Position numbers and translations under genes: made by a program
Origin: Haladaptatus sp. QDMS2
Lineage (GTDB): Archaea; Halobacteriota; Halobacteria; Halobacteriales; Halococcaceae
DNA: 64,000 nt
Reading direction: 5' to 3'
Assembly (NCBI RefSeq): GCF_029338295.1
Contig: NZ_CP119791.1
Location: 2,232,001 to 2,296,000 of the forward strand
Notes under the pieces: generated by a model
Seen by the model: only the letters and a program-made list of their open reading frames with translations
Databases searched by the model: none
What the model was told of the DNA's origin: nothing
Part shown: positions 5,973 to 27,054 of the stretch, piece after piece
How the letters are laid out: each line of letters opens with the position of its first letter
Numbering within the stretch: the stretch's first letter is position 1

Positions 5973-6064
5973 GTTACTCGCACTAAGCGATGGGCACGAA
6001 AATACCTTCGCAGACACCACAGCCACCAGGTGACGCCGATGTTAGCTGCAGCCCCCAACGGGGT

Positions 6065-7639
6065 CTACGGATCGAGGGCGGCAAGTCGGGGATTCTCCCC
6101 CGGCAGCGGATGCGGGTCGAAACCGTCGATGCCTGCGGCGAGGCCAAAGGAGTTGTCGAGCGTGAACACCGGGAGCGCCACCCGCTCTTCGAGCAGGGTA
6201 CGCGTCGCCGACTCGTACAGGTCGCGGCGACGCGCCTCGTCGGTGGTTTTGCGTGCGTCATCGAGGGTCTGCATCACCGATTCGTTCTGGTAGAACGTCC
6301 CGTTGGTTCGCCCCTCCGCGTTCTCGTGGAACAATGGGTAGAGGTACGTGTCGGGGTCCGGCCCGCCGGCCCACGCGTCCACGAAGATGTTGTACTCGCT
6401 CGGCGACCCTGAGACGATCTTCTCGCGGAACTCGTCCCACGGGTACTTCTCGGTCCGAGCGCGGTAGAACCCGACCGCAGAGAGGCCGTGGACGAGTTCC
6501 TCCGCGATTTTCTCTCGCAGGAGGTCGTGTTTCGGCACGGCGATAGTCGGGGCCCACGACCCCACGTCGGCCTCGATGAACAACTGCTTCGCTTTCTCTT
6601 TGTTCTTCGCGCGCGGAATCGACCGCCACGCGTCGACCGGCAGTTCCCACTCGCTCGCGAGCTGCGGCGGGAGCAGACCGTACTGGCGTCTGCCAACCGG
6701 CCCGATGAACTGTTCGGTCACCTCGTCCAGGTTCACGAGGTAGTCGATAGCCAGCCGAACCCTCGGGTCGGCGGTCGGCCCCTCGTTGCAGTTGAAGCCG
6801 ATGTAGTGAGAGAGATAGCCCTCTTGAAGAGCCGTTTTCGCGTTCGAGAAGTCCTTCGTCACGTCCCACAACCGCGGATTCACACGTTCGACGATGTCGT
6901 TTTGCCCCGTCTTGAGGCTGGTCGTGCGAGCGAGGTCTGAGTGGTTCTGGACGAACCGGGCGTGCGTGATTGTCGGGGCTGCGTCACCCCAATACTCCGG
7001 CCAGTGGGTGAGCGAGACGTGCTCGCCGAGCGTGGCCGTCTCCACCTCGTAGGGGCCGGAGCCGACGGGTTTCTTGTGGGCGAACTTCTCGGGGTTCGAC
7101 TCTCGGACGCCTTTCGGCACGATGCCCCGAGTGAGCGCGTGGCCCATCGCCGGATACGGGTGCGAGAGGTGGAACGCGACCGTCGTTTCGTCGCGAACCT
7201 CGATGTGGTCGAGTGGCCGCACCTGCCACATATCGGGACGTTCCTCCTCGCGGACCGCGCGGTAGGAGTAAGCCACGTCCGCGGCAGTCACCGCGGCTCC
7301 GTCGTGGAACCGTGCGTCCGTTTCGAGCGTCACGACGTGGGTTTTCCCGTCGTTCTCGACGGTGGGTTCGCCCGCGGCGAGTTGCGGGACGAGGGTCATG
7401 TCGTGGTCGTAGCGGTACAATCCCTCGAACACGTTCGTCGCCACCGACTGCGACCACGGGTCGGCCATCCGAACGGGGTCGAGCGTCTTCGGCGCGAGTG
7501 CCTGGGCGTACCGGACTGAGGGCGCGGAGTCCCGCCCGAGGACGCTCGAACAACCGGCGAGTGCGGCGGTGCTCGCAAGGCCGCCGAGTCCCTTGAGCAC
7601 GCTTCGTCTGCTGAAATCAGTGGTGTCATTCATGGTCAT
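6065..7639 (-). CDS. Peptide/nickel-type ABC substrate-binding protein (SBP_bac_5), solo
   Basis: Family-5 extracellular solute-binding protein, the class that receives oligopeptides, nickel chelates or related ligands. It has a Tat motif (SRRSVLKGLGG) and a lipobox ending AGC, so it is a lipid-anchored exported receptor. Family segments include NVFEGLYRYD, ARFHDGAAVTAADVAYSY and GSGPYEVE. Length 524 residues is typical. Its ATG overlaps the TGA of the APC permease gene by 4 bases, so it belongs to that operon. No DppB/C permease or DppD/F ATPase is nearby, so it either serves a remote ABC complex or helps capture substrate for the neighbouring secondary transporter. Confidence 0.88.
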   Translation of the reverse strand: MTMNDTTDFSRRSVLKGLGGLASTAALAGCSSVLGRDSAPSVRYAQALAPKTLDPVRMADPWSQSVATNVFEGLYRYDHDMTLVPQLAAGEPTVENDGKTHVVTLETDARFHDGAAVTAADVAYSYRAVREEERPDMWQVRPLDHIEVRDETTVAFHLSHPYPAMGHALTRGIVPKGVRESNPEKFAHKKPVGSGPYEVETATLGEHVSLTHWPEYWGDAAPTITHARFVQNHSDLARTTSLKTGQNDIVERVNPRLWDVTKDFSNAKTALQEGYLSHYIGFNCNEGPTADPRVRLAIDYLVNLDEVTEQFIGPVGRRQYGLLPPQLASEWELPVDAWRSIPRAKNKEKAKQLFIEADVGSWAPTIAVPKHDLLREKIAEELVHGLSAVGFYRARTEKYPWDEFREKIVSGSPSEYNIFVDAWAGGPDPDTYLYPLFHENAEGRTNGTFYQNESVMQTLDDARKTTDEARRRDLYESATRTLLEERVALPVFTLDNSFGLAAGIDGFDPHPLPGENPRLAALDP

Positions 7640-8943
7640 TCACCCGACATCCACGGCAGCACGTCTTCGATTGGTTCTCGTTCGAAGTACAGCAGTTCGA
7701 CGCCGATGACCGCCGCGCCGATGAGCAGGACGGTCACAAACATCTCCGGACTGTTGAGATAGAGGTCGTAGAGCAACAGCGGGAAAAACGCCGCCGTGCC
7801 GAGGAGTCCGACCACCGGAATCGGCGTGATGAGGTCCAGCTGGTCGCGCTGTTTCAGGGCGAGATAGCTCATCCCCCCGAACACCGCGATGAAGGCGAGC
7901 GAGGCGAAGGAGGTGATGCTCTTCAGACTGCCCACCACGGCGAAACCGGCAGAAAGCGCCCCCAACACGACGACGATTCGTTTCGGTATCTCGCCGTCGC
8001 TGCTCCCGCCGATTTTTTCGGGGAGGAGACCCCGGTCGATGAGGTTCTGTGAGAATAGGGCGCTCGAAAATAGCGTGGCGTTCACCGCGCTCGCCGTCGA
8101 GAACAGCGCAGAGATGCCGATGATGAGCGCACCGATAATCCCCATGAACTGGAGACCGGCGTAAAGCAGCGACACCTCCGGGGAGACGGCGATGACCGAA
8201 ATCTTGAGCAGGCTCACCGTCGTCAGCGCGACGAGTATGTAGAGCACCGTTGCAGCCGGAATCGAGATGTAAATCGCTTTCTTGATGTCTGTTTTCGGGT
8301 TGTCGAACTTGTCCTGGTCGTACATCAGGAGTTGCCATCCCTGGAAGGCAACGAACGACATCGCCGCGCCGAGGATGGGGTCGCGAATCGACATCGACGA
8401 GAGCCCGAACGTCAACTTCTGGACGGTGAATGCGTGGTACACTCCCCAGATGCCGAACACCCCGATGACGACGACTTTGATGAAGGTGAGCACGTCCTCT
8501 GCCTGCCCCGTCTCCGCGGCCCCAACGAGGTTGAGCGCGACGAACGCGCCGATGAGGAGGATTGAAACGGCGTTTGCAACGGGAATCCCGTAGAAGTGGA
8601 GGCGACCGAGCAGTTCCGAGAAGAACGAGGAGAAGGCGTAAGCGTAGAGCGCCATCGACCCAACGTACCCGAACAGTAGGGTCCAGCCGGTCATCCCCGC
8701 GAGCGTCGAGTTGCCGACGAGTTCCTCGATGTAGGTCGGTGCGCCTCCCTTAGCGTCCACGAAGGTGTTCAGTTTCACGTAGCTGTACCCCGCACACATC
8801 GCGACGATGCCCGCGACGAGCCACGCGAGCCACGATGCGTCACCGGAGATGGCGACGACGATGCCGAAGGCCGAGTAAATCCCCCCGCCAATCATGCCAC
8901 CGAGCGCCATTGCAACGGCTTCTTTGAGTGAAAGCTGTCCCAT
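7636..8943 (-). CDS. APC-superfamily amino acid permease
   Basis: Secondary amino acid transporter with about 12 membrane segments over 435 residues. The first helix carries the APC signature MALGGMIGGGIYSAFG, and a conserved loop reads DPILGAAMSFVAFQGWQ. It is followed with a 4-base overlap by the solute-binding lipoprotein and preceded, 124 bp away, by kynureninase on the same strand. The context suggests import of tryptophan or kynurenine, or export of the products anthranilate or alanine. Substrate assignment is inference only. Confidence 0.85.
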   Translation of the reverse strand: MGQLSLKEAVAMALGGMIGGGIYSAFGIVVAISGDASWLAWLVAGIVAMCAGYSYVKLNTFVDAKGGAPTYIEELVGNSTLAGMTGWTLLFGYVGSMALYAYAFSSFFSELLGRLHFYGIPVANAVSILLIGAFVALNLVGAAETGQAEDVLTFIKVVVIGVFGIWGVYHAFTVQKLTFGLSSMSIRDPILGAAMSFVAFQGWQLLMYDQDKFDNPKTDIKKAIYISIPAATVLYILVALTTVSLLKISVIAVSPEVSLLYAGLQFMGIIGALIIGISALFSTASAVNATLFSSALFSQNLIDRGLLPEKIGGSSDGEIPKRIVVVLGALSAGFAVVGSLKSITSFASLAFIAVFGGMSYLALKQRDQLDLITPIPVVGLLGTAAFFPLLLYDLYLNSPEMFVTVLLIGAAVIGVELLYFEREPIEDVLPWMSGE

Positions 8944-9067
8944 GTGTCAGTCCGAATTCGAAAACGTCCACTCGTCAATCGGAATACGATACCCACCGTC
9001 CCCAACGCACGTCGTCCTTCTATTGGGCAGGACGGGCGCGGGTACAATAATGGCTACGGCCAACCGG

Positions 9068-10333
9068 TCAGGTCACCCCGCCCTGTCGCAGTTTGAACCT
9101 TTCATATGCAAGGTCATCGACGATTTCCCCGAGCATTTCGACGACGTGCCACACGTCCTCGAAGGTTGAGTAGAGCGGCGCAGGACACACGCGGACGACG
9201 TTCGGCGGGCGGAAATCGACGACGACACCGCGCTCTTTGAGCGCGAGCGAGATGCGGTAGGCTTCCGCGTGTTCGAGCGCGATGTGACCACCGCGGCGGG
9301 CGTGTTCGCGCGGCGTCCCAATCGCGAATCCGCGGTCTGTGAGTTTCGCATTCGCGAGCGCCACGAGGAAGTCGGTGAGCGCGAGCGACTTCTCGCGCAC
9401 GGCCTCGATGCTCGTCTCCTCGAAGATGGAGAGCGACCCGTCGAGGGGGGCCGCGGCGAGAATCGGGATGGTTCCGATTTGCCACGCGCCCGCCGACTCG
9501 GCAGACGTGAACTCGTGGCGCATCTCGAACTGGGTGGCTTTGTCGTGACCCCACCATCCGGCGAGTGCGGGCGTCGTCCCGAAGTGTTTCGAATTGACGT
9601 ACAGACCGGCGATGGCCCCCGGCCCGGCGTTCAGGTACTTGTAGGAACACCAGACGGCGAAATCGACGCCCCACGCAGACAGTTCGTGGGGAACCGCGCC
9701 GACCGAGTGGGCGAGGTCGAATCCGGCGAGTGCGCCGTGGTCGTGGGCCGCCTCCGTGATGCGTTCGACGTCGAGCAACTGCCCGCTTCGGTAAAGCACT
9801 GAGGGCATGAACACGATGGCCGTCTCGTCGTCGATGGCTGCCTCGATGTCGGCCTCGTCGATGGTGCGTCCGTCTCGACTCTCGACGGCGACGAGGTGGT
9901 CGTCCGGGTCGAGTCTGCGCAGACGGAGTTGGGACTTGATGGCGTAGTGGTCGGTCGGAAAGTCGAGGTCGTTGACGATAATTTTGCCCGGGTTGTCCGC
10001 GAGGAAGGTGCCGATGAGCGTGTGAATGTTGACTGTCGTGGAGTTGGCGACGACGACCGCTTCGGGGGCCGCGCCGACGAGCGGGGCGGTGCGCGCGCCG
10101 AGGCGTTCGCCGTAGTGAAACCAGTCCGGGTCTGCGTCCGTCCACCCCCGGATGGCGAGGTCGCGCCACTCGGCGACGGCGTCCGTGAGGGCGGTGTCCG
10201 CGTCTTCGGAGGAGATGCCGAGCGAATTGCCGTCCATGTAGAACTCGTCTTCGCGCGTGTGAAAGCGCGCTCTGAGGTGTGCGAGGCCGTCGGCCGCGTC
10301 GCGCTCGCGGGCGGCGGCGAGTGAAAGGTCCAT
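9068..10333 (-). CDS. kynU: Kynureninase
   Basis: PLP-dependent hydrolase that splits kynurenine into anthranilate and alanine in tryptophan breakdown. The N-terminus has the family motif EFYMDGNSLG. The cofactor lysine lies in WCSYKYLNAGPGA near residue 231, and the aspartate pair region is AGFDLAHSVGAVPHEL. Length (421 residues) matches bacterial kynureninases. No tryptophan dioxygenase or kynurenine formamidase gene is in the window, so only the last step is visible here. The APC permease and binding-protein genes follow on the same strand. Confidence 0.93.
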   Translation of the reverse strand: MDLSLAAARERDAADGLAHLRARFHTREDEFYMDGNSLGISSEDADTALTDAVAEWRDLAIRGWTDADPDWFHYGERLGARTAPLVGAAPEAVVVANSTTVNIHTLIGTFLADNPGKIIVNDLDFPTDHYAIKSQLRLRRLDPDDHLVAVESRDGRTIDEADIEAAIDDETAIVFMPSVLYRSGQLLDVERITEAAHDHGALAGFDLAHSVGAVPHELSAWGVDFAVWCSYKYLNAGPGAIAGLYVNSKHFGTTPALAGWWGHDKATQFEMRHEFTSAESAGAWQIGTIPILAAAPLDGSLSIFEETSIEAVREKSLALTDFLVALANAKLTDRGFAIGTPREHARRGGHIALEHAEAYRISLALKERGVVVDFRPPNVVRVCPAPLYSTFEDVWHVVEMLGEIVDDLAYERFKLRQGGVT

Positions 10334-10427
10334 ATCGGGGGAACGAACCGGGCAGGGAAAGCCCTTGAGTGAAGTGAACGTTTCAGTCTACGGAGTAGTT
10401 ATCCGGACGCCACCCGAAGTGCTACCA

Positions 10428-10856
10428 ATGCGCTTGCACCTGCCCGCGTTCCTCTTCGGCGAGGAACCGGCCCACTTCCTTCCGCTGGTGGTGCTCGCCG
10501 TCCTCCTCGCGGGGGCGACGACGGTTGCGTACGAACTGGTGTTGCACCAGATGCTCGGCGGTGTCGTGTTCTATCCCGGGCCGGTCGCCTTCCTCGGCGT
10601 GCTCGCCGCCGGACTGGCGGGCCTGCGAAACAGCGGGCTCGTGGTAGGCATACTGCTCGGCGCGGCCCCAGCGTTCGGATTCAACGTCTTTCACTACGTG
10701 CTCTCCATCGGCCACCGGTCGGTGCAGTGGGGACTGGTCGAAGCCGCGTTGAGTCCCATGCTGGTCATCGGTGGCGTCATCGGCGTCGTGGGCTTCTTGC
10801 TCGGGCGCGGCCTCGACCGGCTCAGTCCCGAACTCGCGCGAAAAAGTGGCGTGTGA
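10428..10856 (+). CDS. Small four-helix membrane protein of unknown function
   Basis: No family recognised. The 142-residue protein has about four hydrophobic segments: LPLVVLAVLLAGATTVAY, the stretch around VAFLGVLAAGLAGL, GILLGAAPAFGFNVFHYVL and MLVIGGVIGVVGFLLG, and ends in a short basic tail. The ATG at 10428 is preferred over an upstream in-frame codon because GTAGTTATCC near 10393-10402 is a TATA-like element at leaderless distance. The gene ends two bases before the end of the convergent Bat-type regulator. Confidence 0.65.
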   Translation: MRLHLPAFLFGEEPAHFLPLVVLAVLLAGATTVAYELVLHQMLGGVVFYPGPVAFLGVLAAGLAGLRNSGLVVGILLGAAPAFGFNVFHYVLSIGHRSVQWGLVEAALSPMLVIGGVIGVVGFLLGRGLDRLSPELARKSGV

Positions 10857-10858
10857 CT

Positions 10859-11578
10859 TCAGAGACACTCGTTTACGAACCCGCTCGCCAGCCAGGATTC
10901 GGCGCGCTGGAGGCGATACTGGAGCGTCGATTGCGGGACGCCGATTTCGTCTGCAAGTTCGGCGAGCGTCGTCTCGCGGGGGGTCTCGTAGTAGCCGTGC
11001 GAGACGGCGAGTTCCAGCACCTCGCGCTGTTCGAACGGGAGTTCGCAGGCCGTGATGGCCTCGTCCGTCCAGTGGGTCGGATTCGAGAGGTGTGAGAGCG
11101 ACACGCTAACGCCACCAGAGAGGTGCGCCTGCACCGCGTCGAACAGTTCGCCGACGCTGTCGTCAGAGCGCATGAGGATACGCCATTCGTAGGCATTCCC
11201 GCGGCGCTGGGTCTCGTAGAGCAGTCCCGGACCGAGGTGTTCGTGGGCGAGCGAGGGGAGGGTGCGACACTCCTCGATGCCCTGGCGGTAGGTGTAGATG
11301 GTTGCGCTCGTGGTGTCCGCCGCGAGTAGTTCGTGTTCGCGATACGAATCGCAGGTCGGGTCGTTCAGACACTCGTTACAGCGCGAGGGGTCGGTGAGAA
11401 GGTCCGTGAGCGCGGAGACGGCAGGTTCCGGACCGGTGATGCGGTCTAACCGCCACATGTCGTTCCCAGCGACGGCGCAATCGAGTGACTTAGACAGCGC
11501 GGCCGGATATTCGATGAACACGTCTGCGACAGGGTCTACACCCGGTTCGTACGTGAGGCTGAACACGAACTCTCTCAT
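10859..11578 (-). CDS. Bat-type transcriptional regulator (HTH_10)
   Basis: Haloarchaeal regulator of the bacterio-opsin-activator class. The C-terminal third is the HTH_10 domain: QREVLELAVSHGYYETPRETTLAELADE followed by the recognition region GVPQSTLQYRLQRAE. The N-terminal two thirds are a sensor-like domain with a cysteine cluster, CNECLNDPTC plus a later C, at about residues 68-77, which could bind metal or sense redox state. It is transcribed away from the TFB gene across 241 bp, and an inverted repeat at 11588-11601 lies between its likely TATA element (CTTTACTT on the minus strand) and its start codon, which suggests autoregulation. Confidence 0.87.
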   Translation of the reverse strand: MREFVFSLTYEPGVDPVADVFIEYPAALSKSLDCAVAGNDMWRLDRITGPEPAVSALTDLLTDPSRCNECLNDPTCDSYREHELLAADTTSATIYTYRQGIEECRTLPSLAHEHLGPGLLYETQRRGNAYEWRILMRSDDSVGELFDAVQAHLSGGVSVSLSHLSNPTHWTDEAITACELPFEQREVLELAVSHGYYETPRETTLAELADEIGVPQSTLQYRLQRAESWLASGFVNECL

Positions 11579-11587
11579 TGCCCCAAG

Positions 11588-11601
11588 TTGGTGTGTACCA
11601 A
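11588..11601. promoter_or_regulatory. Inverted repeat TTGGT-N4-ACCAA before the Bat-type gene
   Basis: Arms TTGGT and ACCAA around GTGT, 10 bp before the start codon of the Bat-type regulator. The same arms and spacing recur at 11732-11745 on the TFB side of this divergent intergenic region. Such a repeated, precisely spaced pair fits an operator of a dimeric regulator. Confidence 0.6.
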
Positions 11602-11730
11602 GTAAAGAGCGTATCGGTCTGCACAGTTAGGCACAACATTTATAGTAGGTTATGACCGGGGCATGTATGCGGTTTCCCCTAAATTTCGCCGCGTTACTTA
11701 CTGTGACGTAAGCAGGTGACACGAGTGTTA

Positions 11731-11746
11731 TTTGGTCTATACCAAA
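11731..11746. promoter_or_regulatory. Inverted repeat TTTGGT-N4-ACCAAA on the TFB side
   Basis: Perfect 6-bp arms TTTGGT and ACCAAA with spacer CTAT, followed 3 bp later by the self-complementary TATA-like GGTTATAACC (11750-11759). It contains the same TTGGT-N4-ACCAA core as the repeat at 11588-11601, 144 bp away centre to centre. It lies about 75 bp before the TFB start. Confidence 0.6.
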
Positions 11747-11819
11747 CGAGGTTATAACCCCAAACGGTCCCTACAATGTCGTGTATAGAACCGCGTAGCT
11801 ACCCCCATTTCCCACTCCA

Positions 11820-12788
11820 GTGCAACAAGTAACCTCATACAATCAGTCGGAACGGACGAAGCGCACGCAGACTCGCGAACAGCAGGCCGAAGTGACCTGT
11901 CCAGAGTGTGGGAGTCTCCTCACGACTGACCACGAACACGGCGAACGCCACTGTGAAGAGTGTGGCCTCGTCGTCGAAGAGACAGAGCTCGACCACGGCC
12001 CAGAATGGCGAGCGTTCGACTCCGCAGAGCGCGACCAGAAGTCCCGCGTCGGTGCCCCGATGACGAAGATGATGCACGACAAGGGACTGTCCACCACCAT
12101 CGACTGGCAGGACAAGGACGCTCGGGGGAACACCCTGAGCGCGAAAAAGCGAAAGCAACTCGGTCGCCTTCGGATGTGGGACCGCCGGACGAAGACCCGT
12201 AACGCCCGCGACCGCAACCTCAGACAGGCGCTCGGCGAAATCGACCGCATGGCAAGTGCCCTCGGCCTGCCGAAGGCCATCCGCGAGACCGCTTCGGTCA
12301 TCTACCGCCGCGCCCTCGAAGAGGACCTGCTGCCGGGCCGCTCCATCGAAGGGATGGCGACGGCTTCGCTTCACGCCGCCGCTCGGCAGGCCGGGAACCC
12401 CCGAACCGTAGACGAGATGGCATCGGTCACGCGCGTCGGCGAGATGGAATTCCAGCGCGCCTACCGCTACATCGTCCGCGAACTCGACCTCCAGATTGCG
12501 CCCCCGGACCCCGTCAGCTACGTCGGTCGGTTCGCCTCTGGTCTCGACGTGAGCGACGAGACCGAACGCCGCGCCCGCGAGTTGCTCGAAACCGCAAAGC
12601 GCGAGGGCATCCTGAGCGGGAAGTCGCCGGTCGGCCTCGCCGCCGCGTCGATTTACGCCGCTGGCCTGCTCACCAACGCCGAAATCACGCAGGCAGAAGT
12701 GAGTGAGGTCGCAGACATCAGCGAGGTCACCATCCGCAACCGGTACCGCGAGCTTCTGAAGACGGAACAGGAGGCCGCCGCCGCGTGA
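11820..12788 (+). CDS. tfb: Transcription initiation factor TFB
   Basis: Archaeal TFIIB-like factor that joins TBP at the TATA/BRE and recruits RNA polymerase. A zinc ribbon is formed by CPECGS and HCEECG (residues about 24-45), followed by the B-reader segment EWRAFD, and two cyclin-like repeats, the first around IDRMASALGLPKAIRETA and the second around YVGRFASGLDVSDE. Haloarchaea carry several TFBs that steer different regulons; this one sits divergently from a Bat-type regulator. The start is GTG at 11820, preceded by several TATA-like stretches, so the transcription start is uncertain. The next gene overlaps its stop by 4 bases. Confidence 0.95.
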   Translation: MQQVTSYNQSERTKRTQTREQQAEVTCPECGSLLTTDHEHGERHCEECGLVVEETELDHGPEWRAFDSAERDQKSRVGAPMTKMMHDKGLSTTIDWQDKDARGNTLSAKKRKQLGRLRMWDRRTKTRNARDRNLRQALGEIDRMASALGLPKAIRETASVIYRRALEEDLLPGRSIEGMATASLHAAARQAGNPRTVDEMASVTRVGEMEFQRAYRYIVRELDLQIAPPDPVSYVGRFASGLDVSDETERRARELLETAKREGILSGKSPVGLAAASIYAAGLLTNAEITQAEVSEVADISEVTIRNRYRELLKTEQEAAAA

Positions 12789-15120: not shown

Positions 15121-15867
15121 GTGACCGCGACAGACGAGGAGCAAGCAGGCCCACCCGCGACGCTCTCCCAGCCGACGCCAGCGGCGGCCACCGACTTCCT
15201 CGAAACCGCACTCGCCCGCGACTCGTTGATAACCCTGTTCGGGCGCTGTACGGTCGAGTACGACGGCCGGGCGGCGAGCTATCTCGGCCCCGGCGACCGC
15301 CACGTCATGCTCAAACCCGACGGGTCGTTGCTCGTCCACACGGGCGAGGGGCAGAAACCGGTCAACTGGCAACCACCGGGCTGTACTCACGAGCCACGGC
15401 TCTGTGAGGGAAGTCTCCAGATTCGAAGCGTACGGTCCAACCCCGCCGAAGAACTCCTCGTGACCTTCGAGTCCGTGGTGCAGGTCGCCGCGTTCGACCC
15501 GACCGACGAGAGTACGCTCGCCGTCGAAGGGACCGAAGCAGACCTGAAACGACGCATCCTCGACGACCCGTCGCTCGTCGAACCGGGCTTCCAGCCACTG
15601 GCTACGGAGCGCGAGACGCCTGCTGGCGCAGTGGACATCTTCGGGCGGGACGCCGCCGGCCGGATCGTCGTCGTGGAGTTGAAACGCCGGCGCGTCGGCC
15701 CGGACGCGGTGGGGCAACTTGGCCGCTACGTCGAGGCGCTTCGGCGGGAGTTACACGCGGACGCCACCGTTCGTGGCATCCTCGTCGCTCCCTCCGTGAC
15801 CGACCGGGCACGCGACTTGCTCGCAGAGAATGGGCTCGAATTCGTCGCGCTCGACCCGACCGCGTAA
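15121..15867 (+). CDS. nucS: Endonuclease NucS (EndoMS)
   Basis: Mismatch/branched-DNA endonuclease of the NucS/EndoMS family, which cuts both strands at mismatches and works with PCNA. The N-terminal domain runs to about residue 130. The C-terminal RecB-like nuclease shows the catalytic set E164, D172 (GAVDIFGRD), E186 and K188 (VVVELKRRR) and the Q199 region GQLGRYVEAL. I see no clear PCNA-interacting motif at the C-terminus. The GTG at 15121 follows a GTTTTTATG TATA element near 15089-15097. Its stop codon directly abuts the last codon of the convergent mutS gene. Confidence 0.93.
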   Translation: MTATDEEQAGPPATLSQPTPAAATDFLETALARDSLITLFGRCTVEYDGRAASYLGPGDRHVMLKPDGSLLVHTGEGQKPVNWQPPGCTHEPRLCEGSLQIRSVRSNPAEELLVTFESVVQVAAFDPTDESTLAVEGTEADLKRRILDDPSLVEPGFQPLATERETPAGAVDIFGRDAAGRIVVVELKRRRVGPDAVGQLGRYVEALRRELHADATVRGILVAPSVTDRARDLLAENGLEFVALDPTA

Positions 15868-18402
15868 TCAGTCGAGGTCGTTTTTCAGCCGGTGGAGGAC
15901 GTTCATCGCTTCGAGTGGCGTCGTGTTCGCGAGGTCGACCTCACGGAGGAGGTCGGCGAGGTCGCCATCGACAGCGGGTGGTTCTTGCTCGGCAACGTCT
16001 GTCTCGGCGAGCAGTTCCTGCGACCGGGTAACGACCGAGGCGGGCAAGCCGGCGGCCTTCGCGACTTCCACGCCGTAGGAGGCGGCGGCCGCGCCGGGCG
16101 AGAGGTCGTGCTGGAACACGACTTCGTCGTCCACCTGCGTCGCTTCGAAGTGGAGGTTGTGGACGCCCGCAAGGCGGTTTGCCATCGCCGTCAGTTCGTG
16201 ATGGTGAGTCGCGAACAGCGTCCGCGCACCGATATCGTCGTGGATGTGTTCGGTTACCGCCCGGGCGATGGCGAGGCCGTCTGTGGTGCTCGTCCCGCGG
16301 CCCACTTCGTCCAAAAGGACGAGCGATTTGTCGGTCGCCTCCCGCAGAATGTCGGCAACCTCAGTCATCTCGACCATGAAGGTTGACCGCCCGCCAGCGA
16401 TGTCGTCGGACGCTCCGACTCGCGTGAAGATGCGGTCGACGAGTTCGATTTCCGCGCTCGCCGCGGGGATGAAACTGCCCACCTGCGTGAGAATCGTGAG
16501 GAGCGCCACCTGTCGCATGTAGGTGGACTTCCCGCTCATGTTCGGCCCGGTGAGGATGGCGAACCGGTCGGTCGCGTCGAGGTGCGTGTCGTTGGGCACG
16601 AACGACTGTTCGGTACGTTCGACGACGGGGTGGCGACCGCCTTCGATGTGGATGCCGTCGGTTCCGATGTCGGGCCGGGTGTAGCCGTGATTCGCCGCGA
16701 CGTCGGCGAGCGAGACGAGCACGTCGAGCGCCGCGAGCGTGTCCGCGACGGCCTGAATCCGCGCGGATTCGGCGGCCACCTCATCGCGGATGTCGCGGAA
16801 CAACTCGTGTTCCAGGTCGTCTGCGCGCTGTTCGGCCCGGAGGATTTCGTCCTCGCGTTCTTTCAGGTCGGGCGTGTAGAATCGCTCTGAGTTCTTGAGC
16901 GTCTGGCGGCGCTGGTAGTCGTCTGGAACCTTCTCGAGGTTCGGGTTCGTCACCTCGATGTAGTAGCCGTGGACCTGGTTGAACCCGACTTTCAGCGACC
17001 CGATGCCGGTGCGTTCGCGCTCGGTTTCTTCGAGGGCGTTTATCCACTCCTTGCCGGAACGCTCGGTATCTCGGAGTTGGTCTAAGTCGTCGTCGTAGCC
17101 GAGTTTGATGACGCGCCCCTCGGTGATTTCGACCGGCGGGTCTTCGCGGATGGACTGGGCGATGAGGTTGCGAATCTCGGGCAGGTCGTCGAGGCCCTCG
17201 TGGAGCGACTGGAGTTGCTCCGAGTCGGCGTCTCGCAGGAGGTCTCGGAGGTTGGGAACCACGTCGAGGGTCTGTTTGAGCGAGCGCAGGTCCCTGGCGT
17301 TCGCCCGCCCACGAGAGACGCGTCCGATGAGTCGCTCGATGTCGTAGACGTCCCGGAGGTGGTCGTGGGCCGCCTCCCGCACCTGGAGGGCGGTCGTGAG
17401 TTCCTCGACCGCGTCGAGCCGGTCGTCGATGCGCGTCGAATCGACGAGCGGGCGGCGAAGCCACGCCTTCAGTTTGCGACTGCCGAGCGCCGAGGCCGTC
17501 TCGTCTAAGATGCCGACGAGGGTTGCGTTTCGCGCCGCGTGGACCGCCCGCGGCTCGAACAGTTCGAGGCTTCGGAGGGCGACGGGGTCGAGCAGGAGGT
17601 ACTCCCGGGGGTCGTAGCGCGTGAGGTGGTTGAGGTAGTCGAGGTGGCCGTCCTCGCCGCCGCGAGTGTATTCGGCGTAGGCGAGCAGCGCCCCACAAGC
17701 CTGAATCTCCGCTTCGCCCGCGAGCAACGCCTCCGGCGGGCCAAAGTAGGTCGAGATGCGGTCGCGGGCCGCGTCTGACTCGAAGATATCGTCAGAGACG
17801 GGCGTTACCATGCAGTCTGCGTCGAACAGGTTGTCGTCCACGCCGGGGCCGACGATGGCTTCGGTGGGGGCGAAGCGACCGAGTTCGTCGCGAATCGAGT
17901 CGAGCGACTGGGCGCTCGTCGCGAGGAACTCACCGGTCGAAACGTCGAGCAGCGCGAGGCCGTACCCGGCGGTCAGGCAGGCGACGTAGTTGTTGTCGTC
18001 AGTCCGAAGAAGTTCGTCTTCGGTGAGCGTCCCCGGCGTGATGATGCGGGTGACCGCGCGGTCGACGATGCCGGAGGTTTCAGACGGGTCCTGCACCTGG
18101 TCTGCGATGGCGACACGAAAGCCCGCGTCGAGCAGTTTCGCGACGTAGGAGGACGCGTTGTCGATAGGGACGCCGGCCATCGGGTAACGGCCCGTACTGT
18201 CCTCGCGGGCGGTGAGCGTGATATCGAGGAGCCGGGAGATGGTCTCTGCGGCGTCGCAGAACGCCTCGTAGAAGTCGCCGACCTGAAACAGCACCAGACA
18301 GTCTTCGTACTGGCCCGTCAACTCGAAGTACTGACTCATCATCGGCGTCAACTCGTCTGCGTTCTCGGCCATCTGTGCGGGTTGCCCAAGCGCCCCTTCC
18401 AT
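15868..18402 (-). CDS. mutS: DNA mismatch repair protein MutS (paralog A)
   Basis: Mismatch-recognition ATPase of the MutS1 class, 844 residues. The mismatch-probing Phe-x-Glu motif is present in VGDFYEAF (residues 44-46). The ATPase has Walker [10 protein letters not shown] near residue 618, Walker [15 protein letters not shown] and FATHHHEL. The frame is open to 18429, but ATG 18402 gives the usual haloarchaeal N-terminus [10 protein letters not shown] and has a CATCTTTTTGAC TATA element about 30 bp upstream. It is encoded tail to tail with nucS. A second MutS lies at 32306 and MutL at 55421. Confidence 0.96.
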
Positions 18403-18462
18403 GTGAAAGGGAGTCGCCTTCAGCGTCAAAAAGATGCTCGGGTTGGGCCGTCGGTCGCCAGG

Positions 18463-19604: not shown

Positions 19605-20657
19605 TCAGGCGAGGATGAGGTGTGAGTCGCCGAATTCGTGCCAGAGGTAGCCCTCGTCTATGGCTTCTCGGTATCCGTCCATGATGCGCTCGCGTCCCGC
19701 AATCGCGTAGAGCATTGCGAGGTGGGTCGTCTGGGGGTCGTGAAGCCCGGTCAGTAGGCCATCGACGACGTGAACCCCGCTATCGGGTGAGATGAACCGA
19801 CGGGTGAATCCACCGGTCGCCCGGACCTGTTCGCCATCCCACGCGGTTTCGACGGCGCGGACGACGGTGGTCCCGACGGCGACGACTCGACCCCCGCGCG
19901 CTTTCGTGGCCGAAATCGCTCGCGCCGTCGCGGCGGGAACCGAGAACGGTTCGGGATAGAGGGGGAGGCAGGCGTCCTCCCGGCAGCCGAGTTCGCACTG
20001 GTCGGCTTCGACCTCCAGACTCGACACGCCGGTGTGGAGAGTGAGCGTCGCGATACCCACCCCGCGGGCGCGGAGACGGTCCACGACGCGGGCGGTGAAC
20101 GGCCGGGCGGCCGAGGGCATCTCCGCGCTCCCCGGCGTCGTGGCGAAGTACGTCTGGTAGGCCGAAAGCGGAAACGCGCGGTCGAGGTAGCCGTACCGGA
20201 TGGGCGAGCCGTGCGTCGCCATCGCCGCTCCCACGTCGCCGGCTATGCGGACGAACGTGAGTCGTGGAATGTTCGGGAATACGGAGACGACCCGACCGTG
20301 GAGGCCCGCAACTTCGAGTCGGTCGCCCGGTGAGAGGGAGAGCGGGCCGGGTTCGCTCGCGCTTCGTCGTGGCTCAGTGAGCCAGAGGCCGTGTCCGTAG
20401 TCGGTACACAGGTTGAGGATGAACGCGCCGTCCGGACCGGTCGCTGGGAGGGTGGCTGGAATCGTCGCACTCTGGTTGACGATGAGCAGGTCGCCCGGAC
20501 GGAGGGCGTCGGCGAGATGAAGGAACCGGTCGTGGTGGTGGCTCCCGCCTTCGCTCACGAGTAAGCGCACTTCGTCGCGTTCGAGCCCTCGTTCCTCTGG
20601 CGGTTCGGTCGCCTGCAAGGCTTGCGGGCGTTCGAACTGCAGGTCGGTCAGTTGCAT
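19605..20657 (-). CDS. QueA-like SAM:tRNA ribosyltransferase-isomerase homolog
   Basis: Homolog of QueA, the enzyme that transfers and isomerises the ribosyl part of SAM onto 7-aminomethyl-deazaguanine in tRNA. Matching segments are RDEVRLLVSEGG, LRPGDLLIVNQSATIPATLPA, LTLHTGVSSLEV, VGTTVVRAVETAW, FISPDSGVHVVDGLLTGLHDP and AMLYAIAGRERIMDGYREAIDEGYLWHEFGD. The usual FITPGY segment is altered to FISPDSG and the early substrate loop differs, so substrate may differ. The frame is open to 20930, but ATG 20657 is chosen because it overlaps the SDR stop as TGATG and starts family-like. Queuosine is not expected in archaea, which make archaeosine instead. Confidence 0.85.
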   Translation of the reverse strand: MQLTDLQFERPQALQATEPPEERGLERDEVRLLVSEGGSHHHDRFLHLADALRPGDLLIVNQSATIPATLPATGPDGAFILNLCTDYGHGLWLTEPRRSASEPGPLSLSPGDRLEVAGLHGRVVSVFPNIPRLTFVRIAGDVGAAMATHGSPIRYGYLDRAFPLSAYQTYFATTPGSAEMPSAARPFTARVVDRLRARGVGIATLTLHTGVSSLEVEADQCELGCREDACLPLYPEPFSVPAATARAISATKARGGRVVAVGTTVVRAVETAWDGEQVRATGGFTRRFISPDSGVHVVDGLLTGLHDPQTTHLAMLYAIAGRERIMDGYREAIDEGYLWHEFGDSHLILA

Positions 20658-21403
20658 CACGGCGCGGCCTCCCAGTAGTCCGCCTGCGCCTGGAAGCGTC
20701 GCCCGTTGATTGCGAGCGGGTCCTGCCCGAGCAACCAGCCCCAGAACGGGAGCGTAATGTCTGGCAGCGGACGGTCCGTGATGTCCTCGCCGGGGTACGC
20801 CTGCTGGTGCATGTCGGTTCGCATATCGCCGGGGTCTACGATGACGACGCCGACCTCGCCTTCGAGTTCCGCGGCCAGTGTCTTGCTCAGGAGTTCGAGC
20901 GCCGCTTTGCTCGCACCGTAGCCACCCCACCCGGGATAGCCCTCCACGCCCGCGTCGCTCGTAATGTTCACGACGAGTCCTGACCGCGCGGCGAGCGCCG
21001 GAAGGAGCGCCTGAATTAGCGCGAGCGGGGCGACCGCGTTCGTCTCGAAGACGGCTTCGAGGTCAGCGAGGGGATACTCGGCGAGCGGCGGAAGCGGAGA
21101 CGGTCCGAGCGTCGAGGCGTTGTTCACGAGCAGGTCGAGGCCGCCGCGTTCGTCTACGTACTTGCGTAACGCGTCGCGGTGGGCGAGGTCGGTCACGTCG
21201 CCGACGACCGTTTCGACTGGTCCCTCGAAACCCATCGCCTCGATGTCGCGGGCCGTCTCGGTCAGGTCGGCCGCCGTCCTCGCGGTGAGCAACAGGTCGT
21301 AGCCATGCCCGGCGAGGAAGGTCGCCACTACCTTGCCAAGACCCTTGCTCGCGCCGGTGACCAGGGCGAGGCGCGCGTCGCCACTCGCTGTCGTCGAATC
21401 CAT
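20657..21403 (-). CDS. Short-chain dehydrogenase/reductase (SDR)
   Basis: Classical NAD(P)-dependent SDR of 248 residues. The cofactor motif is TGASKGLG, the structural NNAS motif is LLVNNASTLGP, and the catalytic residues are serine in NITSDAG and YxxxK in YGASKAALELL. Its stop overlaps the start of the QueA-like gene by one base, so the two are translated together. Substrate is unknown; the coupling may mean a nucleoside-related reduction, though SDRs are often neighbours by chance. Confidence 0.9.
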   Translation of the reverse strand: MDSTTASGDARLALVTGASKGLGKVVATFLAGHGYDLLLTARTAADLTETARDIEAMGFEGPVETVVGDVTDLAHRDALRKYVDERGGLDLLVNNASTLGPSPLPPLAEYPLADLEAVFETNAVAPLALIQALLPALAARSGLVVNITSDAGVEGYPGWGGYGASKAALELLSKTLAAELEGEVGVVIVDPGDMRTDMHQQAYPGEDITDRPLPDITLPFWGWLLGQDPLAINGRRFQAQADYWEAAP

Positions 21404-21449: not shown

Positions 21450-22067
21450 TTACGGGGCGATTTCGACGGCGACCTCGTTTCGCCGCATGAACGGGGGCGT
21501 CCACGGCGCGTCGTACTGGAGGACGTAGGGGTCGCCTTTCACAATAATTTCGTTGTCCGTGAGCGTCCGAAGCAGGGCGCGTTTCTCGCGTTCGATGCGG
21601 TCGTCGGTGGCGTACCAGCCAAACGACCGCACTGCAAGCGTTCGGGGCACCTCCACGACGAGCGAGACGGTCGGGTTCGTGGGTTTCGGCACCGCTGCGG
21701 GGGTGTATTCGCGTGGCAAGAAAAAGCCCATCGTGACCTGCGCTTCGTCGGTGACGGTGCGAACCGGTGCGGTCATCGAAATCTTCCCGCCGTGGGTCCG
21801 CACGGGCGCAGTCATCGAAATCTTCGACGCGCCCTCGTTCTCGCCGGAGATGTACTCAAACAGCCGGCGGAACGCGACGTTTTCGTTTGGGGCTCTCGTC
21901 TCCGCGACGATGACCTCGGGGTACTCCCTGAGTTCTACCCCGTCTACGGTGCTGCGTATGGTGTAGGGGATGCGGTCTGCAGCCCGTTTGTTGTAGAGTC
22001 CCCACGCTGCCCAGATGGCGAGGAGACCGGCCGTCGTGGCCGCCGCGAATTTGGCCGTGCGATTCAC
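21450..22067 (-). CDS. SOUL-family heme-binding protein, membrane-anchored
   Basis: SOUL/HBP domain protein (205 residues). An N-terminal hydrophobic helix (FAAATTAGLLAIWAAWGLY) anchors it or serves as signal. The SOUL fold shows VELREYPEVIVAETRA, then two copies of KISMTAPVRT about 12 residues apart, a doubled motif that is common in the family, and a late RSFGWYATDDRI. These proteins bind heme or porphyrins; the function in archaea is unknown. The start is GTG with TTATCG near 22096-22103 as TATA element. Confidence 0.87.
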   Translation of the reverse strand: MNRTAKFAAATTAGLLAIWAAWGLYNKRAADRIPYTIRSTVDGVELREYPEVIVAETRAPNENVAFRRLFEYISGENEGASKISMTAPVRTHGGKISMTAPVRTVTDEAQVTMGFFLPREYTPAAVPKPTNPTVSLVVEVPRTLAVRSFGWYATDDRIEREKRALLRTLTDNEIIVKGDPYVLQYDAPWTPPFMRRNEVAVEIAP

Positions 22068-22109
22068 GAACGATGTAAGCCCCGAGAGGCGATAAGTACC
22101 GGTGGCGAA

Positions 22110-22739
22110 TCAGACGCCTTCGACGAGTCGGTCGAGTTGCTCGGGCGGCACCGCACCGCGGGCGGCGTAGCCGTCGTAGGCGAACGTCGGGACGCCCGTG
22201 ACGCCGTACTCGTGAGCCTCACTGAACTTTTCGAACACCTGCTCACGGAGCGTTTCGTCGTCGAGCGCGAGTTCGATTTCCTCGGGGTCGATGCCCGAAG
22301 CTTCGGCGAGCTCGAAGAGAACCTCCCGGTCACCGATGTCCCGACCGTCCTGCCAGAGCGCGGTGAAGATGGCCTCGTCGAAGTCCAGCCACTGCTCGGG
22401 ATACTCCTGTTTGACGTAGAAGGAGGCGACTTGTGCATCGAGGGAATCGATGTCCGTCGCGAGGTCGAGGGTCATCTCGACGTCGTACTTTTCCTGCAGG
22501 CGGCGGACGTTCTCCTTGGCCTGGGCGTAGTAGTCTTCGTCCTTGCCGTCGTCGACCGAGAAGTCGATGGTGCCGTCCGGGTTGCGCTTTTGGCTGCGGA
22601 GGTCGAACGGATGCCAGTCGACGTCGAGTGGCTCCTCACGAGTTTCCTGGTACTTCGAGAGGGAGTGTCGGCCGAGGTAGCAAAACGGACAGACGTAGTC
22701 CGAGAACACGGTAATCTGGTCGGATTCGGAATCGCTCAT
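22110..22739 (-). CDS. DsbA/FrnE-family thiol oxidoreductase
   Basis: DsbA-like protein of the FrnE type, 209 residues, cytoplasmic (no signal). The active site is SDYVCPFCYLG (cysteines at about 17 and 20), and the cis-proline segment is YGVTGVPTFAYDGYAARGAVPPEQL. FrnE proteins act as disulfide isomerases in oxidative stress in Deinococcus. The gene is next to the metal-linked permease on the same strand. A GCCTTTTGTTTCG stretch near 22762-22774 is a candidate TATA region. Confidence 0.9.
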   Translation of the reverse strand: MSDSESDQITVFSDYVCPFCYLGRHSLSKYQETREEPLDVDWHPFDLRSQKRNPDGTIDFSVDDGKDEDYYAQAKENVRRLQEKYDVEMTLDLATDIDSLDAQVASFYVKQEYPEQWLDFDEAIFTALWQDGRDIGDREVLFELAEASGIDPEEIELALDDETLREQVFEKFSEAHEYGVTGVPTFAYDGYAARGAVPPEQLDRLVEGV

Positions 22740-22807
22740 ATGGCCTTACTTGGGCGACGAAACAAAAGGCAGTTGGTCGGGTGTGTACTTGCCGCGGACG
22801 ACCGTGT

Positions 22808-24136
22808 TCAGTCCGTGGAGTGCACCATTCCGCCAGGAGCGTCCTCGCCGGCCGATTCGCGGGTATGCAGCCAGTAGAGGGCGATGAAGACGACAGTCGC
22901 CAGGACGTTCAAAACGAGTTTGTAGTTCATCTCGATTTTCACCTCGGCGACCTGTGCGGTCGAGGGGTCTGGGATGAGGCCCAGTCCGAGGAACAGGAAG
23001 TGGATGACCACGCCCACGAGTACCGCCGCGAGGAAGATCATCCCCGAGAGCATGGCGGCGAATTTCGTCCCGTAGTACTCGCGGTAGGCGTCCATAATCG
23101 GCGGGACGATGAGGTCCGCGTAGATGTACGAGAGCACCGACCCGAACGGCAGGCCGTTCGTCCAGAGGACGGTTCCGAACGGCACGTTCCCGACCGAACA
23201 GACGAACGTCGCGACGCCGACGATGGCCCCGAGGGCGGCCGTCCAGACGATGAAGACGGGAGCGCCGCTCGCACCGCCCGAGAAGAGACTCGTCCAGACG
23301 GTCTGTGGGATGAATCCGGCGATGAGGCCGGCGAAGACGAACCCGATAGCGATTTCGTCCCAGAGCATGGCCCACTCCTTCCACTGCTTGTCGGCGAGGG
23401 CTTTCCAGCCCGCTTTCGAGGTGGCCTGTTCGACGATGGTCGTGTTCGCTTCCTCGGGGTCGAAACTTTCCTTGCACGACTGCGAGCAGAAGTGGTAGGT
23501 CGTGCCGTCGTGCTGTATGTGATAATCCGTTTCTTCGGGGTTCACCTCCATACCACAGACGGGGTCCTCTGCGGTGGGCTCGCCGTCGCGCTGGGCGTTC
23601 TCGCGGGCCTGGTCGATGACCTCGTCCGGGACGAGGTAGACGAACCCGACGGTCATCAGGCCGATGAGCAGGAAGCCACCGAGGAAGTCAGCGAGCAGGA
23701 ATTCCCACCCCAGCAGAATCCAGATGACGGCCCCGATTTCGATGACGAGGTTGGTGGAGGCGAACATGAACGCGCCGAGCGCGGCGGCCGCCGAAGCCCC
23801 CTTCTTGAAGAGGTTCTTCGCGGTCGCGATGGCGCTGTAGGAGCACGAAGACGAGACGAACCCGAAGAACGTCGCCGCGCCGATGTCTCGTGGTCCGTGC
23901 CCGGACATGAGGTCGGCGATGTCGTCGGAATCGACCCACGCCTCGACACCGCCAGCGATGGCGAACCCGAGGACGAGCGCCCACCAGGTAATCCACGCCA
24001 TCGCGACGGTGGTCGTGGCGGCCGTCGTCGCGCTCTCGACGAAGAACGTGGAGAGTGGTTGATTCGTGGTCGCAACGCCAATTCCGACCACGGCCAGTGC
24101 GATCGTCGTTAATAGGGCGTACTCCCAGCGGTCCAT
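22808..24136 (-). CDS. DUF318-type permease with internal YHS metal-binding domain
   Basis: Membrane permease of the DUF318/ArsP-like group, 442 residues with about eight helices in two halves. Each half has a proline/cysteine-rich conserved loop: GFVSSSCSYSAIATAKNLFKKG in the first, FVCSVGNVPFGTVLWTNGLPF in the second. Between the halves, at about residues 190-225, lies a YHS domain: DPVCGMEV, then TTYHFCSQSCKESFD, whose cysteines are typical metal ligands. ATG 24136 is chosen; the open frame upstream reads as non-coding. Such permeases are linked to efflux of metals or organo-arsenicals; the actual ion here is unknown. Confidence 0.87.
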   Translation of the reverse strand: MDRWEYALLTTIALAVVGIGVATTNQPLSTFFVESATTAATTTVAMAWITWWALVLGFAIAGGVEAWVDSDDIADLMSGHGPRDIGAATFFGFVSSSCSYSAIATAKNLFKKGASAAAALGAFMFASTNLVIEIGAVIWILLGWEFLLADFLGGFLLIGLMTVGFVYLVPDEVIDQARENAQRDGEPTAEDPVCGMEVNPEETDYHIQHDGTTYHFCSQSCKESFDPEEANTTIVEQATSKAGWKALADKQWKEWAMLWDEIAIGFVFAGLIAGFIPQTVWTSLFSGGASGAPVFIVWTAALGAIVGVATFVCSVGNVPFGTVLWTNGLPFGSVLSYIYADLIVPPIMDAYREYYGTKFAAMLSGMIFLAAVLVGVVIHFLFLGLGLIPDPSTAQVAEVKIEMNYKLVLNVLATVVFIALYWLHTRESAGEDAPGGMVHSTD

Positions 24137-24184
24137 GAGTCTCTCGTCTAAACAAACGGGAGCGGACTCTAATGCGATTGTGGC

Positions 24185-24230
24185 TTGGAAACCGAAACAC
24201 AGGACGGCATTCGGTTTGGTTTCCAAACCG
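24185..24230. promoter_or_regulatory. Nested inverted repeats upstream of the YHS permease
   Basis: TTGGAAACC (24185-24193) pairs with GGTTTCCAA (24218-24226), and the right part is itself a hairpin-like palindrome: CGGTTTGG (24212-24219), TTT, CCAAACCG (24223-24230). The block lies 49-94 bp upstream of the permease ATG at 24136, between it and the SHOCT gene. It is probably a regulator-binding region. Confidence 0.55.
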
Positions 24231-24288
24231 GAGCCGGAGAACAACTGGCGATGGCAAATCCGGTTCGACGAGCGCGAACGCCGTCAAA

Positions 24289-24915: not shown

Positions 24916-27054
24916 ATGGGTAACACTTCGGCACCCGGGACCGATGCGGAGTCGTTCGGCCCCGAGGGGAACGCCAGTCACGGAGCGCACGGGCACAACG
25001 TGGTCGAGCGAGACGGACGGCCTGCCGGCCACGGAGGGCACGCAGGACCGGCCATGCACACTGCCCAGCGTGCCCACACAGACCACACCGGTCACGAGGC
25101 GATGTTCCGCCGCCGATTCCTCGTGTCACTCGTCCTCTCGGTTCCGGTCGTCTTCTGGAGCGAGTTCATCCAGGATACCCTCGGGTACGCGGCGCCAGTG
25201 TTTCTGGGCAGTTCGCTGATAACGCCGGTCCTTTCGGTCGTCGTCTTCGCCTACGGTGGCGTTCCCTTCCTGCGGATGGCCCGGACCGAGGTCGATAATC
25301 GCGAACCGGGGATGATGCTACTCATCTCGCTCGCGATTACGGTCGCGTTCGGTTACTCGATTGTGAGTCTGGTCCTGCCCGGAACCACGCCCTTTTTCTG
25401 GGAACTCGTCACCCTCATCGACATCATGTTGCTCGGTCATTGGCTCGAAATGCGTTCGGTGCGACAGGCCTCGGGCGCGCTCGACGAACTGGCGAAACTC
25501 CTGCCCGATACCGCAGAGCGCGTCACCGCGAACGGTGGGACGGAGGAAGTCCCCGTCGCGACGCTGACAGAAGGCGACGTTGTCCTCGTCAGACCGGGCG
25601 CAAGCATCCCCGCTGACGGGATGGTGGTCGAAGGGGCTTCGTCCGTAGACGAGTCGATGATTACAGGCGAATCGAAACCGGTGGATAAGGAGGCCGAAAG
25701 CGACGTCGTTGCGGGAACCGTCAATCAGGACGGCAGCCTTCGCGTTCGAGTGACGAAGACGGGCGACGACACGGCCCTTGCAGGCATTATGCGCCTCGTC
25801 GACGAAGCCCAACGCTCTACGTCCCAGACACAACTGCTCGCAGACCGGGCGGCGGGGTGGCTGTTTTACATCGCTCTCGCTGTGGCGGCGTTCACCGCCG
25901 TCGCGTGGGTGCTTGCGACTGGATTCTCCATCGACGTGTTAGAGCGGGTAGTGACGGTGCTTGTCATCGCCTGTCCTCACGCCCTCGGCCTCGCCGTGCC
26001 GCTCGTCGTCGCGATCAATACCTCGACCGCCGCCCGAAACGGGATTCTCGTTCGCAATCGCAAGGCGATGGAGGAAGCGCGGAATCTGGATGTCGTGGTC
26101 TTCGACAAGACGGGAACGCTGACGAAGGGTCAACAGGGAGTGGTCGGCGTCAAAACCGAATCGGGGTGGGACGAAACGCGGGCGCTCACTGTTGGGGCGG
26201 GCGTCGAGGGCGACTCAGAACACATGATCGCTCGGGCGATTCGAGCGGCGGCGACCGACCGCGGACTGGTCGGCGTCACCGTCTCCGACTTCGAGAACCT
26301 CCGTGGGCTCGGCGTCCGCGCCACCGTAGACGGGGCAGTCGTCCACCTCGGTGGCCCGAACCTCCTGACACACCTTGGCATCGAACCGTCGGGTTCCATC
26401 CGCGCGTTCGCCGCGGAGGCCGGGGAAAACGCCCAGACCGTCGTCTATCTCGTCGAGAACGAAACGGCTATCGTCGCCGCCTTCGCGCTCGCTGACGTCG
26501 TTCGCGAAGAGAGCAGACGGGCCGTCGATGCCCTCCACGCGATGGACATCGAGGTCGCCATGTTGACCGGCGACAGCGAGGACGTGGCGCGCGCGGTCGC
26601 CACAGACCTCGGCATCGACCAGTATTTTGCGGAGGTACTCCCCGACGAGAAAGACGCAAAAATCGGCCAGTTACAGGCGGCGGGCAAACGCGTCGCGATG
26701 GTCGGCGACGGCGTCAACGACGCACCGGCCCTTGCCCGTGCCGACGTCGGCATCGCCATCGGCTCCGGCACGGACGTGGCAATCGAGTCCGGCGACATCG
26801 TCCTCGTCGAGAACGACCCGGTCGACGTGGTGCGACTCGTCGAGCTCTCGCGTGCGAGTTACCGCAAGATGCAGGAGAACCTCGTCTGGGCGACGGGTTA
26901 CAACGTCGTTGCACTCCCGCTCGCGGCGGGCGTGCTCGCTCCGATTGGAATCTTGCTCTCACCCGCCATCGGCGCGGTGTTCATGTCCGTCTCGACGATT
27001 ATCGTGGCCGTCAACGCTCGCCGGCTCCGTGGGGTCGCGTTGACCCCGTCGTGA
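24916..27054 (+). CDS. copB: CopB-type copper-translocating P1B ATPase
   Basis: P-type ATPase of subgroup P1B-3, which exports copper (or silver). The membrane metal site is CPH (residues 353-355, [13 protein letters not shown]) rather than CPC. The phosphorylated aspartate is D397 in [10 protein letters not shown], the actuator motif is ITGES, and the hinge is [21 protein letters not shown]. Instead of a heavy-metal-associated domain it has a histidine-rich N-tail of about 60 residues ([22 protein letters not shown]). It lies divergent to the SHOCT gene, and its last 44 bp overlap the end of the convergent BASS transporter gene. Confidence 0.95.

Follow-up and report, generated by a model that had tools for sequence, protein, structure and literature searches.

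As far as we are aware, no enzyme other than QueA has been found to donate the ribose of SAM in this fashion, and QueA has been tied to queuosine. What, then, does a divergent QueA homologue do in a haloarchaeon, and what is the dehydrogenase gene that it overlaps doing beside it? The question is raised by a gene pair of Haladaptatus sp. QDMS2, analyzed within a window of 64,000 nucleotides (contig NZ_CP119791.1, positions 2,232,001 to 2,296,000), whose features are as follows:

19605-20657, minus strand: QueA-like protein, 350 aa, divergent paralogue within PF02547 (244 bits)
20655-20659, minus strand: TGATG overlap, in which the stop codon of the upstream gene (TGA, 20659-20657) and the QueA-like start codon (ATG, 20657-20655) have one base in common
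20657-21403, minus strand: short-chain dehydrogenase/reductase (SDR), 248 aa, first gene of the pair (PF00106, 143.7 bits)
21450-22067, minus strand: SOUL haem-binding protein gene (PF04832, 148 bits)

The original prediction of a QueA-like gene whose start overlaps an SDR stop was borne out by the Pfam match and by the overlap itself, where the shared base is the A of both codons (...CCG-TGATG-CAA..., as read from the sequence); near-zero spacing between the two genes is frequent among relatives too. A longer QueA-like reading frame, from a GTG at 20930, was discarded as an over-extended mechanical call, and the ATG at 20657 was adopted. The SOUL gene lies upstream of the pair on its strand, 46 nt from the SDR, and is possibly co-transcribed with it; no SOUL gene was found beside the pair in the other haloarchaeon (genome G100, locus L165), i.e. 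the linkage is not conserved. The genes that precede the SDR on its strand (21450-24244, minus) encode the SOUL protein, a DsbA/FrnE-like thioredoxin-fold protein and an ArsP-type permease with a YHS domain, and a P-type (E1-E2) ATPase gene is located nearby (24916-27054, plus strand). The window also holds two adjacent mismatch-repair systems: a NucS/EndoMS endonuclease gene (15121-15867, plus strand; domains PF01939/PF21003) placed tail to tail with a complete MutS gene (15868-18429, minus strand; domains I-V).

A separate QueA paralogue subfamily

The QueA-like protein scored far above the gathering cut-off of PF02547 (Queuosine_synth; E 2.4e-72, cut-off 25), and fell far short of each of the three QueA equivalog cut-offs of NCBIfam (176.1 vs. 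324, 139 vs. 267.45 and 103.9 vs. 588). Its closest PDB sequences were the QueA structures 1wdi, 1vky and 1yy3. The same three were the only significant Foldseek matches (E about 1e-24, TM-score 0.55-0.59 by query length; next match, E 0.09) of an AF2 model that was built with a 41-sequence alignment as input and reached a mean pLDDT of 90.5. In a tree containing 79 relatives together with 13 QueAs, canonical or other, QueA-like and canonical rows were split by a branch with an SH-aLRT value of 99, so that the protein did not group with canonical QueA. Based on these sequence comparisons, it is a member of a separate QueA paralogue subfamily. No paper on this subfamily, or on QueA in connection with SoxR, was found in the non-subscription literature.

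When set against the canonical QueAs that occur in the same bacteria, the subfamily has kept the fold-wide motifs RD, N, YQT, LH.G, VGTT.R..E and GD, while the segments most conserved in QueA have been consistently switched: AAPTAGLHFT to EMPSAxRPFT, GTFxP to SSxE, TNFHLP to TGxHxP, which gains a His, and FFSFGDAM to LWHEFGDSH. The QueA signature segments APTAGLHFT, TNFHLP and FFSFGDAM are therefore absent from the subfamily, and the substitutions that replace them are conserved. The altered FITPGY-type segment pointed out in the original prediction is real (FISPDSG at residues ~287-293, against FIYPGY or FIRPPY in QueA); it is a subfamily-wide change that belongs to the same pattern of switched segments, and not the biggest difference. 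The T. maritima and B. subtilis QueA structures have no bound substrate, hence the switched segments cannot be placed against ligands, and since no SAM-bound QueA structure is known, retention of the SAM-binding residues is not demonstrable (PMC10491745).

It is conceivable that these substitutions eliminate ribosyl transfer entirely, which is a point against the explanation favored below. A related reading is that the QueA-like protein is no longer catalytic and regulates the SDR by binding SAM or a ligand, in keeping with the replacement of several QueA-invariant residues. This we consider hardly probable, given that 46 columns are invariant across 41 diverse subfamily members, including polar residues that only this subfamily has, a pattern that indicates a maintained active site. 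A Cys-containing insert (CELGCREDAC, residues 217-231) was present, among the copies inspected, only in the two haloarchaeal ones and was modeled with low confidence, as a disordered loop; it was dropped as a candidate central feature.

The SDR partner and the spread of the pair

At least 521 relatives were confirmed, and in 79 of the best 80 the QueA-like gene was immediately preceded by an SDR gene in the same orientation, the contig of the 80th ending before that position. The linked SDRs of these relatives were 45-66% identical to that of the window. In order to avoid the bias of motif scans, 37 additional QueA-like genes were retrieved by a Pfam search of 198 Actinomycetota genomes, and an SDR was found beside the QueA-like gene in every one of these loci, picked without the search motifs. 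The TGxxxGxG motif and the catalytic N-S-Y-K residues (N122, S149, Y162 and K166) of classical SDRs were invariant in 33 linked SDRs, which moreover have a signature of their own (VDPGDMRTxMHQxAFPGEDISDRPLP); the AF2 model of the window SDR had a pLDDT of 95.5. Five loci showed a fusion of the SDR to a glyoxalase/bleomycin-resistance (VOC) domain, and one of them (L153) carried an extra, separate VOC gene between the SDR and the QueA-like gene.

The subfamily was distributed over Thermoplasmatota, Bathyarchaeota, Chloroflexota, Actinomycetota, Gemmatimonadota, Deinococcota, Acidobacteriota and Alphaproteobacteria, its carriers being mostly MAGs, plus numerous Streptosporangiaceae isolates. It was detected in only two of 292 Halobacteria and in one of 18 genomes of the family to which the window belongs, a sparse occurrence indicating that the haloarchaeal copies were probably acquired horizontally; their nearest relatives in the tree are from Chloroflexota. 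The pair is best viewed as a two-gene module that is mobile and whose members are obligate partners.

No confirmed relative was found in viral contigs. A viral origin was rejected on this ground and because phage matches were at most 38% identical and looked like ordinary QueA. An anti-phage or DNA-modification role was likewise set aside, as PADLOC matched 0 families and viral contigs held no relative. The queA-like gene of Geobacillus thermodenitrificans plasmid pGeo12a (L004) was excluded from the subfamily as a different, long-branch sequence in the tree. It lies in a gene cluster (4701-12476) that looks like one for a nucleoside natural product and that includes two thymidylate synthase genes as well as genes for PqqD-like proteins, a diaminopimelate decarboxylase, a NUDIX hydrolase and an aminoglycoside phosphotransferase-like protein.

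Independence from queuosine

Across the 198 Actinomycetota genomes, a TGT-family gene was present in all 104 with canonical QueA and in none of the 33 with the QueA-like gene only (Fisher p 2.8e-29, counted on 28 full-length of the 33). Many carriers are MAGs, where a missing gene says little; the TGT result draws its strength from this within-sample contrast and from large isolate genomes. In a set of 50 carrier genomes, QueC above the PP-loop background was missing from 12 of the 16 that were TGT-less, and QueH was found in none of the 50. At least a dozen of them (Chloroflexota, alphaproteobacteria and others) also had canonical QueA, the two paralogues thus occurring together in genomes of Q-producing bacteria. 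The absence of TGT from genomes with the QueA-like gene only means that a substrate common to the whole subfamily cannot be a TGT-inserted deazaguanine. This argument would miss the archaeal members if their substrate differed, a less likely situation in view of the conserved pair and residues.

The archaeal carriers had arcTGT, the archaeosine-type TGT, and most of them QueC, as expected for archaeosine; the window genome had both, with only arcTGT-type matches in the TGT family. The original prediction had set QueA, placed at a late step of queuosine synthesis (more precisely, the penultimate one), against the archaeal use of archaeosine. The arcTGT and QueC of the host agree with the latter point, while the absence of queuosine from archaea was too general a premise: a bacterial-type queuosine pathway has been reported from 34 archaeal genomes (DPANN and Methanosarcinales; PMC8204110), so that an archaeal QueA as such would not be the first of its kind. 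In genome G100, two extra distant TGT-family matches (80 and 77 bits) accompany arcTGT (G100:C1:3033044-3038848) and possibly represent DpdA-type DNA-modification genes.

These data bear directly on the target first proposed, a deazaguanine of tRNA or DNA, whether preQ1, preQ0 or archaeosine. The QueA fold speaks for such a target, as do the arcTGT and QueC genes of the archaeal hosts, which imply that 7-deazaguanine is available there. The proposal does not hold against the lack of any TGT-family gene in the Actinomycetota with the QueA-like gene only, the lack of a genuine QueC in most TGT-less carriers, the coexistence with canonical QueA and the switched QueA signature columns, and we regard it as highly improbable. 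The alternative offered alongside it, another SAM-derived ribosyl transfer, fared better and is supported at the level of presumed chemistry.

Redox sensors and a proposed function

A sensor gene adjoined the pair in 59 of the 70 loci with enough flanking sequence, the sensors being either GAF histidine kinases accompanied by a LuxR-type response regulator or SufR-like regulators. The best matches of the GAF domain from one such kinase (L008) were DosT (2vzw; E 9e-31) and DevS (2w3d). The kinases lie upstream, downstream or divergent depending on the phylum, which argues against simple synteny; those of Streptosporangiaceae are close relatives with partly shared synteny and do not count as independent events. 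In several phyla, GAF kinases carry a C-x-C...C motif (L007, L010, L011, L012, L041, L045, L067, L075 and several of L151-L161), and judging from this motif they are possibly Fe-S sensors.

SoxR, with the motif CIGCGCLS, was a neighbor in at least 11 loci, and all four proteins tested passed the SoxR equivalog model TIGR01950 (181-196 bits vs. a cut-off of 116.9). When searched with relaxed arms, the E. coli-type box being too strict as a query, SoxR boxes with up to 2 mismatches numbered 15 in 33.9 kb upstream of the SDR vs. 3 in 1.42 Mb elsewhere, and preceded the SDR at about 14-15 loci or genomes. They lie between a -35-like TTGA(CT) and a -10-like TA...T element, at the 19-bp spacing of MerR-type promoters. 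The SoxR evidence is confined to Actinomycetota, an acidobacterial MAG and one alphaproteobacterium. The sensor types searched first were lacking at the window copy and at 10 other well-flanked loci, some of which have SoxR. The window SDR has neither a SoxR gene or box nor any adjacent regulator, and the role of this copy is extrapolated from its family.

The reading that we favor, at an even chance, is that the pair constitutes a redox-responsive, TGT-independent module for SAM ribosyl transfer and isomerization on some acceptor. In the scheme proposed for QueA, adenine is lost from SAM before the acceptor adds, and a vinyl sulfonium and an epoxycyclopentane are formed with release of methionine (PMC10491745). 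By homology, the QueA-like enzyme would remove adenine from SAM, a nucleophile of the acceptor would attack the resulting vinyl sulfonium, and methionine would leave as the ribosyl carbons cyclize to an epoxy-cyclopentane. The SDR, with NAD(P)H, would oxidize or reduce this same carbocyclic product, or else prepare the acceptor, and redox, O2 or NO sensors would switch the module in most lineages. Given such sensor control, the probable role of the module is the synthesis of a protective metabolite or the modification of a redox-active compound. The acceptor would not be a TGT-inserted deazaguanine, and a small molecule appears likelier than tRNA; SoxR control and the VOC fusions favor a small redox-active or protective molecule, with RNA targets still possible.

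If the SAM-derived ribosyl unit were transferred to some other RNA nucleoside, not inserted by TGT, the pair could provide a stress-induced tRNA modification. The sole known substrate of QueA is tRNA, and the isoelectric points of canonical and QueA-like paralogues from the same genomes were not systematically different, a result compatible with RNA binding; protein charge as such was uninformative and was abandoned as a sign of it. Nevertheless, the obligate SDR, the VOC fusions and the SoxR control suit small-molecule chemistry better, and we know of no amine-bearing tRNA base common to all carriers. We consider an RNA target unlikely. A scheme with no acceptor at all appears distinctly more doubtful: the enzyme would split SAM into adenine and a sulfonium or aldehyde, and the SDR would reduce the freed aldehyde or ketone, in a SAM-consuming or signal-making reaction. 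The loss of adenine before acceptor addition in the proposed QueA mechanism is in line with this scheme, and an aldehyde intermediate would fit the universal SDR partner. On the other side, the QueA mechanism is ordered, with the acceptor bound before SAM (PMC10491745), and acceptor-free cleavage is without precedent in the family.

The favored module has implications beyond the window. A paralogue of an enzyme tied to queuosine is widespread where queuosine cannot be made, many actinobacterial and archaeal genes labelled 'queA' are mis-annotated and constitute poor evidence for queuosine, and the fixed dehydrogenase pairing together with the link to redox stress suggests an undiscovered product and stress pathway. 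A bolder reading, which we place somewhat short of an even chance, is that the pair represents a second, TGT-independent branch of QueA chemistry, i.e. a redox-induced, horizontally spread pathway to a new SAM-derived cyclopentane conjugate unrelated to queuosine, which would be a metabolite, a cofactor or a detoxified compound. The actinomycete copies under SoxR control make the question directly testable.

With respect to known systems, the QueA-like protein shares with QueA (PF02547; TIGR00113; NF001140; PDB 1WDI, 1VKY and 1YY3) the Pfam family, length, predicted fold and the motifs RD, YQT, LH.G, VGTT.R.LE and GD, but differs in its separate clade, sub-cut-off scores, switched motifs, TGT independence, constant SDR neighbor and redox-type regulators. 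The linked SDRs have the fold, cofactor motif and catalytic tetrad of classical and YciK-type SDRs (NF006509, PDB 3i1j); the window SDR, however, scored 135 bits against the YciK cut-off of 269, and the linked SDRs carry their separate signature. Among the sensors, the GAF region of one kinase class aligns with that of DosT, one of the DosS/DosT haem-GAF kinases, including the HHP..F.G.P region, but the neighboring kinases are single-GAF proteins whose haem binding is putative and read from motifs, and the SufR-like regulators (89 and 112 bits) fall below the SufR cut-off of 178.8. As in the SoxR regulons of Streptomyces and Pseudomonas, some relatives have a SoxR box and MerR-type promoter before an oxidoreductase gene, with soxR adjacent or divergent (PMC4146615). 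In S. coelicolor, SoxR controls a transporter and oxidoreductases whose presumed task is the processing of antibiotics that are redox-active, and no SAM ribosyltransferase homologue is described among its targets (PMC4146615), whereas in the subfamily analyzed here SoxR, present in only part of the members, is associated with an SDR paired to such a homologue.
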